Origin: Actinomycetes bacterium
Lineage (GTDB): Bacteria; Actinomycetota; Actinomycetes; Nanopelagicales; Nanopelagicaceae
NCBI GenBank assembly: GCA_947383695.1
Contig: OX376642.1
Span: 1,364,001 to 1,428,000, forward strand
Reading direction: 5' to 3'
Length of the DNA stretch: 64,000 bases
Shown: piece by piece, positions 57,324 to 59,481 of the stretch
Layout: the number at the start of each line of letters is the position of its first letter
Numbering within the stretch: position 1 is the first letter of the stretch
Notes under the pieces: model-generated
The model's database searches: none
What the model saw: only the letters and a program-made list of their open reading frames with translations
Told to the model about the DNA's origin: nothing
Program-made: the position numbers and the translations under genes

Positions 57324-58166
57324 TTACGGGTTACAACTCATGCAACGGGATGGATCAATAGTCACATTGATCACAGCCCCTGGCTTTGTGTATTCACACT
57401 TAGCACAACCCAAAATCTCTTCTTTTAGAGCATTTTCCGCGTAATCGCCACACTCCGAACAGTGAACCCCTCTGGTGTAACTCTTTAGCCCCCAACCCGG
57501 TGTGTGGCAATCGGGGCAGGTGTTAACAAGTCGTTGGGCTAACTTAAGTCCGACTTTAGAAATATTCTCTTGTCTAGATGGAGAATACATCGCTCGAAAA
57601 TCACTTTCAATAATCGCTTGTCCATCTGCAGATTTATCGCGAGCTTCGATAATTGCTTTCTCTAGCTCACGTAGCTCACGTATCCCTTTAATTGCACCAG
57701 CTCCAATATTGGGCTTGACGATAAGAGCGTGGTTCGGAAAATCAGCTCGCTTTAAAAACTCATCTAAGTTATTTTTCAATGTGGTTGTTGTGGCTGCAAT
57801 GATCTGGTTTGAAATCACAGTCTCATGGACCGTGATTCCTAACTCTTCATCTATAAAAAGTAAGGTTTCGATATCTGCGGAAATAAATGGAACAAATGGA
57901 TCTGTGGTGATGCTTCCTTCAGATGCGATTACATATGGGTTGCCTGTTGCTTCGATTCCAAGTTTCGCCTTTCTTATCGCTGTCTCTAACGAGTTGCCGA
58001 CTCTTTCAATCTCTCCAGAAAAGGTTCCTAGTACATCTGTATCAAGATTAACCTCCTCTATGTGTACCTGCAGTAGATTGTGAAAATGAGGAGCAACCAA
58101 TCTCCCTTTGTCATGCTTGGTTGGCATGACAAAACTCTTTGAGTTGTATCTGTTGGGGATGCTCAC
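57324..58166 (-). CDS. DUF6671-type zinc-ribbon protein
   Basis: A 280-residue soluble protein that I match, with moderate confidence, to the DUF6671 family. The N-terminal part has MPTKHDKGRLVAPHF and VLGTFSGEIER, with a central alpha/beta region (VIASEGSITTDPFVPFISADIE, near 77-98). The C-terminal 70 residues carry four Cys pairs (CPDC, CSEC, CAKC, CMSC), two zinc ribbons. ISTDP-like segments recall phosphate handling, but no catalytic motif is sure. It overlaps the HTH regulator by 4 nt and shares its operon opposite SbtA. Confidence 0.65.
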   Translation of the reverse strand: MSIPNRYNSKSFVMPTKHDKGRLVAPHFHNLLQVHIEEVNLDTDVLGTFSGEIERVGNSLETAIRKAKLGIEATGNPYVIASEGSITTDPFVPFISADIETLLFIDEELGITVHETVISNQIIAATTTTLKNNLDEFLKRADFPNHALIVKPNIGAGAIKGIRELRELEKAIIEARDKSADGQAIIESDFRAMYSPSRQENISKVGLKLAQRLVNTCPDCHTPGWGLKSYTRGVHCSECGDYAENALKEEILGCAKCEYTKPGAVINVTIDPSRCMSCNP

Positions 58167-58456
58167 TTTTTTGAAAAGATCCTTAGTAGTGCGCTAATTG
58201 GTTGTTGTGCTTCCATTGGATGGCGAAATTTTTTATTGGTGTTTACTCGATAGCTATTTCGTCGACCGATTCTTTCAATGGAAATATATCCACCAGTTTC
58301 CAAATCCGACAGAATGGATAGAGCGCTTCGCTCAGTAATTCCAACAGCCTCTGCGATCTCTTTGACCTTTGAATCAGGGTTGCGATTGATGTGGACAAGG
58401 ATGTGACCGTGATTTGATAGAAAGGTCCATGTTGATTGGGTTTTTGCCTCTGTCAT
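58163..58456 (-). CDS. Winged-helix transcriptional regulator, MarR/ArsR-like
   Basis: A 97-residue DNA-binding protein from ATG 58456. The winged helix-turn-helix spans about residues 10-75: HGHILVHINRNPDSKVKEIA, the recognition helix ITERSALSILSDLETGGYI and the wing RIGRRNSYRV. No ligand domain is present. ATG 58456 is chosen over one 15 nt upstream because a perfect TATAAT (complement of 58463-58468) lies 6 nt before it. An inverted repeat in the shared intergenic region with sbtA is the obvious operator candidate. Confidence 0.82.
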   Translation of the reverse strand: MTEAKTQSTWTFLSNHGHILVHINRNPDSKVKEIAEAVGITERSALSILSDLETGGYISIERIGRRNSYRVNTNKKFRHPMEAQQPISALLRIFSKK

Positions 58457-58512
58457 GGATTGATTATACATGAGATTTGACTCATGAATTATAGTTCATG
58501 TATTATTATTCT
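58457..58512. promoter_or_regulatory. Divergent promoter and candidate operator between the regulator and sbtA-like gene
   Basis: For sbtA: TTGACT (58477-58482), 18 bp, TATTAT (58501-58506), then GTG 58513 after 6 nt. For the regulator: TATAAT on the minus strand (58463-58468), then ATG after 6 nt. ATACATGA (58466-58473) and TCATGTAT (58496-58503) form a perfect inverted repeat with arms overlapping each -10 element, and a third TCATGA lies between (58482-58487). This is ideal for autoregulation and co-repression. Confidence 0.6.
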
Positions 58513-59481
58513 GTGAGCTCATGGGATTTAGCGCTATCCAACCTTGTATCTGTTGGTGTTTTGGCTTTTGCTTTCGGTTTTATCGCAGCCAGAATTAGAA
58601 GCGATGTACGGGTTCCAGAGCAGATCTATCAGTTTTTATCTATCTATCTTTTGTTTGGAATCGGACTTAAAGGTGGTCACTCATTAAAGAGCGTCTCCTT
58701 TGAAGAAATCTTAACCCCAGCTGTAACAACAATAATTGCAGGTGCTTTGATCCCGGTGCTTGCCTATCTTTCACTTCGTTTTGTTCGCGCTTTGTCTGTG
58801 ATGGATCGTGGAGCGATTGCTGCTCATTATGGATCGACTTCGCTTGTGACCTTTTCTGCAGCTCTTCTATTTCTTGAAAGTAACTCTATTTTCGTTGAAG
58901 GTTTCGCCCCTGCTTTGTTAACTTTGATGGAGATCCCGGGGTTGATTGTTGGAATTTATCTGGGTTCTAGAACACCTGGAACAACTGTTAAATGGAGCGA
59001 AACCCTTAAAGAGGTTTTATTAGGCAAAACAGTTTTGTTGTTATTTGGTGGATTGTTTATTGGTGCGGTATCTACCAATGAAGGTTATGAAAAAGTAAGT
59101 CCATTCTTTGTTGGTTTATTAAGTGGATTACTTGTTTTATTCCTATTGCATTTGGGGTACTTGGCAGGCTTCAACTTCTCTGAGGTTCGCAAGGTTGGAA
59201 AACCGCTTATTGTTTTCGCCCTTTTCTTTCCATTAATTATTGGTGTGGCAGGTGTTGCATTAGGTGGAGCAATTGGACTCTCAGTTGGTGGTTCAACAAT
59301 TCTTGGTGTTTTGTGTGCGAGCGCTTCTTATATTGCAGCACCTGCCGCTGTGACTGTTGCGCTACCAAAGGCCAATGCAACCGTTGCTTTGATGTCCAGT
59401 ATTGGCGTTACATTTCCATTTAACTTGATCATTGGAATTCCGGTGTACTTCAAAGTGGCGGAGTTTTTAAGCACCATTTAG
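58513..59481 (+). CDS. SbtA-family sodium-dependent bicarbonate transporter-like permease
   Basis: A 322-residue membrane protein of PF05982 (SbtA) with about ten helices. Two inverted halves are suggested by EQIYQFLSIYLLFGIGLKGG (near residue 38) and VGGSTILGVLCASASYIAAPAAVTVALP (near 260-287), the latter a diagnostic SbtA segment. SbtA imports bicarbonate with sodium in cyanobacteria; in heterotrophs the substrate is less sure. No PII-like SbtB gene is adjacent, unlike cyanobacteria. The start is GTG 58513, set by the promoter spacing; an ATG 15 nt upstream overlaps the -10 element. Confidence 0.85.
   Translation: MSSWDLALSNLVSVGVLAFAFGFIAARIRSDVRVPEQIYQFLSIYLLFGIGLKGGHSLKSVSFEEILTPAVTTIIAGALIPVLAYLSLRFVRALSVMDRGAIAAHYGSTSLVTFSAALLFLESNSIFVEGFAPALLTLMEIPGLIVGIYLGSRTPGTTVKWSETLKEVLLGKTVLLLFGGLFIGAVSTNEGYEKVSPFFVGLLSGLLVLFLLHLGYLAGFNFSEVRKVGKPLIVFALFFPLIIGVAGVALGGAIGLSVGGSTILGVLCASASYIAAPAAVTVALPKANATVALMSSIGVTFPFNLIIGIPVYFKVAEFLSTI

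Follow-up and report, generated by a model that had tools for sequence, protein, structure and literature searches.

An SbtA-like permease cassette of Nanopelagicaceae with a conserved candidate operator, a winged-helix regulator and a DUF6671 partner also found beside DAB pumps

The stretch of DNA analysed here, called the window throughout, comprises 64,000 nucleotides (positions 1,364,001 to 1,428,000 of contig OX376642.1, assembly GCA_947383695.1) from the single-contig, 1.43 Mb genome of a tiny freshwater bacterium of the family Nanopelagicaceae, and it contains a compact cassette for an SbtA-like permease, a small winged-helix regulator and a protein of the family DUF6671. The permease gene, which we call sbtA for brevity, lies on the plus strand (58513-59481), and its product matches the Pfam superfamily Sbt_1 (PF05982; E 4.1e-99) and PDB entry 7cye (E 3.5e-26). 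Divergent from it, on the minus strand, lies the regulator gene (58163-58456), and a promoter/operator region of 56 bp that belongs to neither strand (58457-58512) separates the two starts. In a by-eye comparison, the starts common to relatives are ATG 58456 for the regulator, within an open reading frame (ORF) of 58163-58471, and GTG 58513 for the permease, within an ORF of 58498-59481 whose first ATG (58498) sits upstream of the sbtA -10 box. A preliminary description of this DNA had reported the divergent pair and the 56-bp gap, both of which are present with the genes and coordinates it gave, and had overlooked a third gene: DUF6671 (PF20376; 57324-58166, minus strand; Pfam E 5.5e-37), whose GTG start overlaps the regulator's TGA stop codon as GTGA. 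Regulator and DUF6671 probably form one operon, and the two genes adjoin in relatives too. None of the three window proteins matched an NCBIfam model above its cut-off. A reading of the locus as a defence system was tried and set aside, as PADLOC gave merely weak matches to winged helix-turn-helix (wHTH) proteins.

The regulator, 97 residues long, is predicted to be a single-domain winged helix. It scores above the Pfam cut-offs for HTH_24 (26.9 against 21.9 bits) and FaeA (21.3 against 20.7 bits) and falls short of the MarR family (MarR_2, 23.2 against 27 bits), and its structural model (predicted local distance difference test, pLDDT, 85) finds AspA first in Foldseek (4rs8, E 2.7e-4), followed by ArsR-like and MarR-like chains. 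It has in common with small winged-helix proteins of the MarR/ArsR/AspA type the predicted wHTH fold, but differs from them in its length, in having no separate ligand domain and in carrying N- and C-terminal motifs of its own. The signature of its subfamily reads WTFLxNHxHVL...GITER...LRHP; the N-terminal WTFLxNHxHVL and the C-terminal RHP are conserved outside the recognition helix and might make up a site for a ligand or a metal. Weaker homologues of the regulator occur 3' of DUF6671 as a second copy at three loci (L112:8783-9082, L116:10849-11118, L143:10878-11138) and as the sole one detected at a fourth (L141:3257-3517).

The 56-bp region holds a perfect inverted repeat, as had been described, with arms ATACATGA (58466-58473) and TCATGTAT (58496-58503) around a 22-bp spacer, and within it an inner dyad, CATGAA-N6-TTCATG (58483-58488 and 58495-58500), that has its right arm in common with the outer palindrome. 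Together they make a candidate operator of three half-sites without strand (58466-58503). A promoter scanner found one promoter-like site on each strand, each agreeing with consensus at 10/12 positions. The plus-strand site is the predicted sbtA promoter (58477-58506; -35 TTGACT at 58477-58482, -10 TATTAT at 58501-58506), which overlaps the operator and whose TTTGA and TAT columns are conserved in the 24-locus alignment considered below. On the minus strand, the candidate -10 of the regulator-DUF6671 operon, TATAAT at 58468-58463, was picked by eye, has no good -35 and drew no response from the scanner; its spacing to the start was compared by eye in a few relatives. The scanner placed its own minus-strand -10 at 58493-58488. 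Two near-consensus promoters, as earlier proposed, can be found, but matches of this kind are nothing out of the ordinary (2 here, compared with a shuffle mean of 3.7), and the accompanying statement that the palindrome arms touch both -10 elements is right for the right arm and the sbtA -10, and for the left arm only if the by-eye TATAAT is accepted, since the arms leave the scanner's minus-strand -10 untouched. Both assigned -10 boxes end (58506 and 58463) 6 nt ahead of their own start codons, so both mRNAs are probably leaderless.

Conservation sets this palindrome apart from chance. Of the first 35 permease loci that we collected, 24, the window included, have a divergent regulator, and their promoter regions (23 distinct; 22 found by pattern and 2 added by hand) align without gaps. 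When an 8-bp dyad is placed on this alignment in 425 ways, the axis of the palindrome takes the four best places, with 0.75 to 0.79 of cells complementary (0.78 for the exact arms, against a mean of 0.30 over all placements), and the inner dyad comes next at 0.75. The outer arms pair in 78.8% of cells against 72.2% in column shuffles and reach a covariation score of 0.130 against 0.064, values attained in neither case by any of 500 shuffles, and all six slid versions of the arms pair less (at most 49%). They do not exceed the column shuffles for pairs changed on both sides (272/500) or for further pair types (106/500), and the inner dyad is conserved, yet its pairing is not above shuffles (62/500). 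With a leave-one-out matrix, all 24 regulator-transporter loci score between 15.6 and 56.8, and three further pair loci outside the training set score 37.9, 45.0 and 56.5, whereas the motif is missing from all 11 sampled sbtA loci that have no regulator (-28.6 to -7.2). The preliminary description had proposed a search for the same palindrome at orthologous loci, its absence from close relatives with the gene pair being named as a refutation, and the idea withstands this check: the palindrome is kept at every pair locus scored and is missing from the regulator-less loci sampled. A chance palindrome is ruled out by its conservation, its covariation and its dependence on the regulator. Because the motif, among the sampled loci, is present with the regulator and absent without it, we consider it very probable that the palindrome is the operator of this regulator.

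The regulator looks to act locally. In the window genome the operator search pattern is matched exactly just once, and its matches with three mismatches (16) are fewer than those of a control pattern (26), so that a genome-wide regulon, which we also considered, has left no sign there. That regulator and palindrome form a local regulator-operator pair is, from these alignments, the claim in which we place the greatest confidence. In one family genome (G272; C54 and C27, L020/L052 and L062), the regulator-sbtA pair is present twice, each time with an operator. At six other loci, sbtA adjoins a peptidyl-prolyl isomerase gene, as it does in the window, and regulator and DUF6671 are missing; at one of these, L007, the stretch TCTCATGTATTC resembles a remnant of the right arm of the operator.

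SbtA is not the only companion of the regulator and DUF6671, which also adjoin the unrelated DAB pump. In a survey of 251 genomes of Nanopelagicaceae, sbtA was found in 40, the regulator in 26, DUF6671 in 21 and DabA (PF10070) in 4. All 26 regulator genomes have sbtA or dabA (Fisher 6e-24), as do 20 of the 21 DUF6671 genomes (Fisher 2e-16; the exception, G215, shows just a fragment), and all four dabA genomes have DUF6671 (Fisher 4e-5) and three of them the regulator, with the caution that these Fisher values ignore the kinship of the genomes and are descriptive. One dabA genome, G131, has the regulator divergent from a dabB-dabA fusion that is followed by DUF6671. In G142, the regulator, dabB and dabA all run the same way, and a perfect 11-2-11 dyad, ATACACGAAAA-GA-TTTTCGTGTAT, lies ahead of dabB in the design of the inner dyad. 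In G193, dabBA-DUF6671 stands behind an operator-like sequence, and the only regulator match is on another contig, with an altered operator (score 24.4) and no adjoining transporter. The two kinds of transporter gene co-occur in none of the 251 genomes, a result that is uninformative with four dabA genomes (p 1). DAB/MpsAB systems supply inorganic carbon, in heterotrophs as well (PMC8552792 and PMC13144422), and a review likewise shows transporter genes of these kinds in heterotrophs (PMC10880623). The window genome differs from those with such pumps (DabA PF10070, DabB PF00361) in having an SbtA-type transporter and no match to DabA; its regulator family and DUF6671 do stand beside dab genes elsewhere, both in relatives and in bacteria of other phyla.

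How far the association reaches can be seen from a scan of named genomes for DUF6671, which found at least 579 relatives; we read the best 80, a sample biased towards close relatives of the window protein, and all counts out of 80 or 71 refer to these. They come from Actinomycetota, Bacillota, Chloroflexi, Pseudomonadota, Chlamydiae, Bacteroidota, Planctomycetes, cyanobacteria-related groups and others. Genes for dab or sbt transporters lie near DUF6671 at 46/80 loci in the retrieved DNA and within 2 kb at 39/80; leaving aside nine loci that we judged to be Nanopelagicaceae-like, the counts are 38/71 and 31/71. A regulator of the same type stands at 32/80 loci, 20 of them with an inorganic-carbon transporter (23/71 and 12 without the nine), and at several of them dabB or an isocitrate dehydrogenase gene diverges from it. 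A less biased sample, an even draw of 316 genomes of the phylum, has DUF6671 in seven, four of which have dabA, against 20/316 overall (p 4e-4). These seven consist of the window genome, three with dabA on the same contig, one with dabA elsewhere and two with an adjoining isocitrate dehydrogenase gene. At the 26 DabA loci of this draw, taken with short flanks, the regulator was found in two (L186, L198), and wider stretches add two genomes (G506, G516). Upstream of 29 regulators from outside the family, the 38-bp operator matrix matches at p<=0.05 in 15 and a 24-bp matrix of the inner dyad in 11, whereas eight matches were obtained in 84 control upstream regions, drawn from 23 of the loci, one of the eight being upstream of an sbtA gene; this test excluded L198 (the same stretch as L218), L110 (too short an upstream region) and any regulator match weaker than 1e-25.

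We took the immediate neighbours of DUF6671 by a simple longest-ORF rule at the loci outside the Nanopelagicaceae-like set, 135 in all; their most frequent Pfam families are Amidohydro_1 (9), DabA (8), Iso_dh (6) and PAPS_reduct (6), with Sbt_1 (3), Carboxyl_trans (2) and PurK_C (2) further down the 25 families listed of 86. Dealing with CO2 or bicarbonate is common to DabA, Sbt_1, isocitrate dehydrogenase, PurK and carboxyl transferase, a pattern into which PyrC and CysD fit less readily. Twice DUF6671 shares a frame with such a protein: with DabA on a Parachlamydiaceae chromosome (L132:7730-10837, plus strand, with an undetermined residue in the linker) and with PurK (ATP-grasp and PurK_C) in a Desulforudis bin (L134:8636-10849, plus strand). 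PurK-like genes occur in five more DUF6671 loci. In an arrangement parallel to that of the window, the regulator family is divergent from an isocitrate dehydrogenase gene, which is itself followed by DUF6671, at L112, L119, L137, L165, L213 and L214. At ten proteobacterial loci, DUF6671 adjoins a PyrC-like dihydroorotase gene, directly behind it in seven, and at seven loci it adjoins a CysD-like gene of the PAPS reductase family, four of these with dab genes also present.

What DUF6671 does can be approached through its predicted structure. The window protein belongs clearly to the family (128.1 bits against a cut-off of 23.8), and a model built from 58 sequences (pLDDT 95.1; predicted template modelling score 0.90) lays it out as a fold like that of inosine triphosphatase (ITPase)/HAM1, an ATP-grasp-like insert and a cysteine-rich C-terminal domain with eight conserved cysteines. 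Foldseek returned YjjX (E 2e-4) and human ITPase (ITPA, E 4.2e-4), with modest TM-scores of 0.27 to 0.29 by query length for the best five, and structure comparison of the predicted model (VIA) gave HAM1 (1vp2, Z 13.4 over 141 residues at 3.4 A), VC0702 (1zwy, 13.2) and RdgB (2q16, 12.6), the best eight lying between Z 12.4 and 13.4, as expected of an ITPase/HAM1/YjjX fold. Residues 121-191 match ATP-grasp domains, among them that of cyanophycin synthetase (Z 9.3 over 66-67 residues). In contrast to this likeness in predicted fold to the ITPase/HAM1/YjjX/Maf superfamily of NTP pyrophosphatases, there is no match at the level of sequence: profile searches found no ITPase, HAM1 or YjjX and, at E<=1, only DUF6671 itself and a weak TackOD1, while a search of PDB sequences with the DUF6671 profile gave merely weak matches of zinc-finger and ribosomal proteins to the tail. 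The insert and the eight-cysteine domain also set DUF6671 apart from that superfamily. Conserved in the family alignment are Lys20, Lys66, Glu83 and Arg198, which we take to resemble the catalytic set of the ITPase/HAM1 superfamily. Our best guess from the model is that DUF6671 is a nucleotide pyrophosphatase or a nucleotide sensor. We found no paper naming DUF6671 in the open-licence literature searched, and the regulator is not named in the titles and abstract beginnings that we found there on SbtA, DAB/MpsAB, acI and Nanopelagic.

This bears on what stands in for SbtB, the small PII-like protein encoded with cyanobacterial SbtA. In agreement with the preliminary description, no SbtB was found in the window genome, where no PII-like gene is linked to sbtA and both P-II matches adjoin amt-like genes (recognised by eye) far from it. 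The same description had the regulator replace SbtB, which is not supported in that form, as SbtB acts on protein and a transcription factor does not. By analogy, DUF6671 is the better candidate for a protein-level partner: SbtB is a sensor of adenine nucleotides with apyrase activity (PMC8352866 and PMC13249358), and the predicted fold of DUF6671 suggests a parallel that is one of analogy, not of homology. Anaplerotic CO2 fixation, also proposed earlier, is possible in so far as the genome has a phosphoenolpyruvate carboxylase that could use the bicarbonate. Strict exclusivity between sbtA and carbonic anhydrase was considered and rejected: beta-carbonic anhydrase (PF00484) is found in 27/40 sbtA genomes against 177/211 others (p 0.025, confounded by completeness), and 15 of 17 genomes of the window's genus have both. 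Within the genus g17, the six sbtA genomes are not, by eye, among those with PF00484, and the g17 genomes listed with PF00484 lack sbtA; genomes with neither are not all listed, and we treat an either-or pattern in this group as a lead only.

From the computed homologies, linkage, operator conservation and operator dependence on the regulator, we infer a mechanism whose substrate, dimer binding, repression, signal, coupling and DUF6671 biochemistry go beyond what was computed. We think it probable that the locus is a self-contained and swappable cassette for the supply of inorganic carbon, with autoregulated transcription and a nucleotide-handling partner. The permease of the Sbt_1 family would most likely import bicarbonate with Na+, and the winged-helix regulator would most likely bind the operator as a dimer. 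Since the operator would cover both the -35 and -10 of sbtA and the -10 of the regulator's own operon, the regulator most likely represses both, releasing them when inorganic carbon, or a metabolite that tracks it, is low; it is the overlap with -35 and -10 that suggests repression, to which we give moderate credence. The signal may be something correlated with CO2 or bicarbonate, since the regulator also stands divergent from isocitrate dehydrogenase. DUF6671, probably coupled to the regulator in translation, would most likely bind or hydrolyse nucleotides and in this way assist the supply or the use of bicarbonate, an accessory role that seems to us somewhat more likely than not. Regulator and DUF6671 would be the constant part, and the transporter, of SbtA or DAB type, the exchangeable one. 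That the cassette has a role in inorganic carbon, as the preliminary description had suggested, is the part of this interpretation that we hold most firmly, and it is better supported by the company that the same regulator and DUF6671 keep with DAB pumps than by the resemblance of the permease to SbtA.

Several observations weigh against this interpretation. Of the 40 family genomes with sbtA, 17 are without the regulator and 24 without DUF6671, and incomplete genomes explain only part of this, as two single-contig genomes, each 99% complete (G052, G109), have sbtA and neither partner. The operator-like sites ahead of dab score 7.8 (G131), 5.3 (G142) and 16.5 (G193), values below the range of the sbtA loci or at its lower end, and have no control of their own. 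Further afield, 16 of the 20 dabA genomes in the phylum draw are without DUF6671, and 14 of the 29 outside regulators have no operator match at p<=0.05. DUF6671 also has other neighbours (isocitrate dehydrogenase at 16/80 loci, PyrC-like dihydroorotase at 10 and CysD-like proteins at 8, families checked on one or two representatives), and 10/80 loci show no scored neighbour at all, some on short contigs. Two beta-carbonic anhydrase (PF00484) matches in the window genome mean that bicarbonate import is not obviously its sole supply. The permease belongs to Sbt_1 with 332 bits against a cut-off of 27 and aligns from residue 21 to 321 with profile positions 3-307 of 308; the side chains that contact bicarbonate in SbtA Slr1512 of Synechocystis, the protein of entry 7cye, are S114, Y140, S324 and S327 (PMC8352866). 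Only two of these four are kept: in all 30 family rows (the window and the loci with a product of more than 250 aa, the shorter of the 35 left out and L001 being the window again), S114 and S324 remain Ser, Y140 is Leu and S327 is Ala. At the Na+ site, where the contacts are main-chain, F110-A112 reads YGS in the window and A320/S322 reads C/S, with Ser at the S322 position in 30/30 rows. Nine permeases near DUF6671 in other groups keep S114 and S324 (9/9), with Y140 kept in one (1/9) and S327 in none (0/9). With two of four side chains kept, we file the permease by its sequence in the Sbt_1 superfamily and not as SbtA (SbtA1) in the strict sense. Compared with the cyanobacterial SbtA-SbtB system (TC 2.A.83), it has in common the superfamily, a small partner gene, the S322 position and two residues of the bicarbonate site, but here Y140 and S327 are replaced, no SbtB- or PII-like gene adjoins, and the cassette has a predicted local winged-helix operator and DUF6671 instead.

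The replaced side chains leave room for transport of a different small anion, or in a different direction, and they lie at the root of the alternative that survives best. On this account the permease moves some other small anion, such as formate or an organic acid, or exports bicarbonate or formate, the cassette answers to that solute, and the DAB linkage reflects a broader signal of C1 or central carbon metabolism. A Sbt-like relative in Shewanella has been tied to formate tolerance and proposed to be an efflux pump (PMC12093963), and the regulator is divergent from isocitrate dehydrogenase at L112, L117, L119, L127, L137 and L165 and, by coordinates, at L213 and L214. Weighed against the pairing of regulator and DUF6671 with DAB, a known supplier of inorganic carbon (PMC13144422 and PMC8552792), and against the serines kept at S114, S322 and S324 throughout the family rows, this account strikes us as unlikely.

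Less likely still is that the regulator is a mere autoregulator of its operon with DUF6671, sbtA being a passenger on a bidirectional promoter. The 17 genomes that keep sbtA with the regulator undetected would fit this, as would L119, where regulator and DUF6671 accompany isocitrate dehydrogenase with no dab or sbt gene in about 20 kb, and the G193 regulator, which has its altered operator and no transporter beside it. But the operator overlaps the sbtA -35 and -10, the operator-like site ahead of dabBA-DUF6671 in G193 lies on a contig that yielded no regulator match, and the G142 dyad, between a regulator and a dabB that run in the same direction, can only serve dabBA. That the palindrome is no operator and only the symmetry of two back-to-back -10 elements, as overlap of the outer arms with both boxes and the commonness of promoter-like matches in shuffles might suggest, is very improbable given that arm positions outside the -10 boxes covary (C-G/A-T in columns 8-37, A-T/T-A in columns 9-36), that the left arm of the inner dyad lies outside any -10 with several of its columns invariant, and that the 11 sampled regulator-less sbtA loci are without the motif.

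Having favoured a swappable inorganic-carbon cassette at this locus, we find it tempting to speculate that the WTFL-type regulator and DUF6671 make up an undescribed inorganic-carbon response module found across phyla, in which DUF6671, sensing or hydrolysing nucleotides, would serve as an SbtB-like partner of unrelated proteins that handle bicarbonate: SbtA-type permeases, DAB pumps, PurK and isocitrate dehydrogenase. We put this forward tentatively, as an argument by analogy that may well fail. Carboxylations require bicarbonate also in bacteria that do not live on CO2, and to our knowledge little has been established about how it is sensed and secured outside cyanobacteria. The cassette suggests what may take the place of SbtB for SbtA-type permeases that lack it, and its linkage to inorganic carbon gives DUF6671 a functional clue. 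Two unrelated inorganic-carbon pumps have in common a regulator whose operator can be read and a widespread DUF6671 protein, and this pair would also provide a direct experimental handle. Cells of the Nanopelagicaceae type are very abundant in lakes, and the presence of the same kind of regulator and of DUF6671 beside a second, unrelated type of pump in other bacteria suggests that scarce CO2 and bicarbonate are dealt with in a way not yet described.

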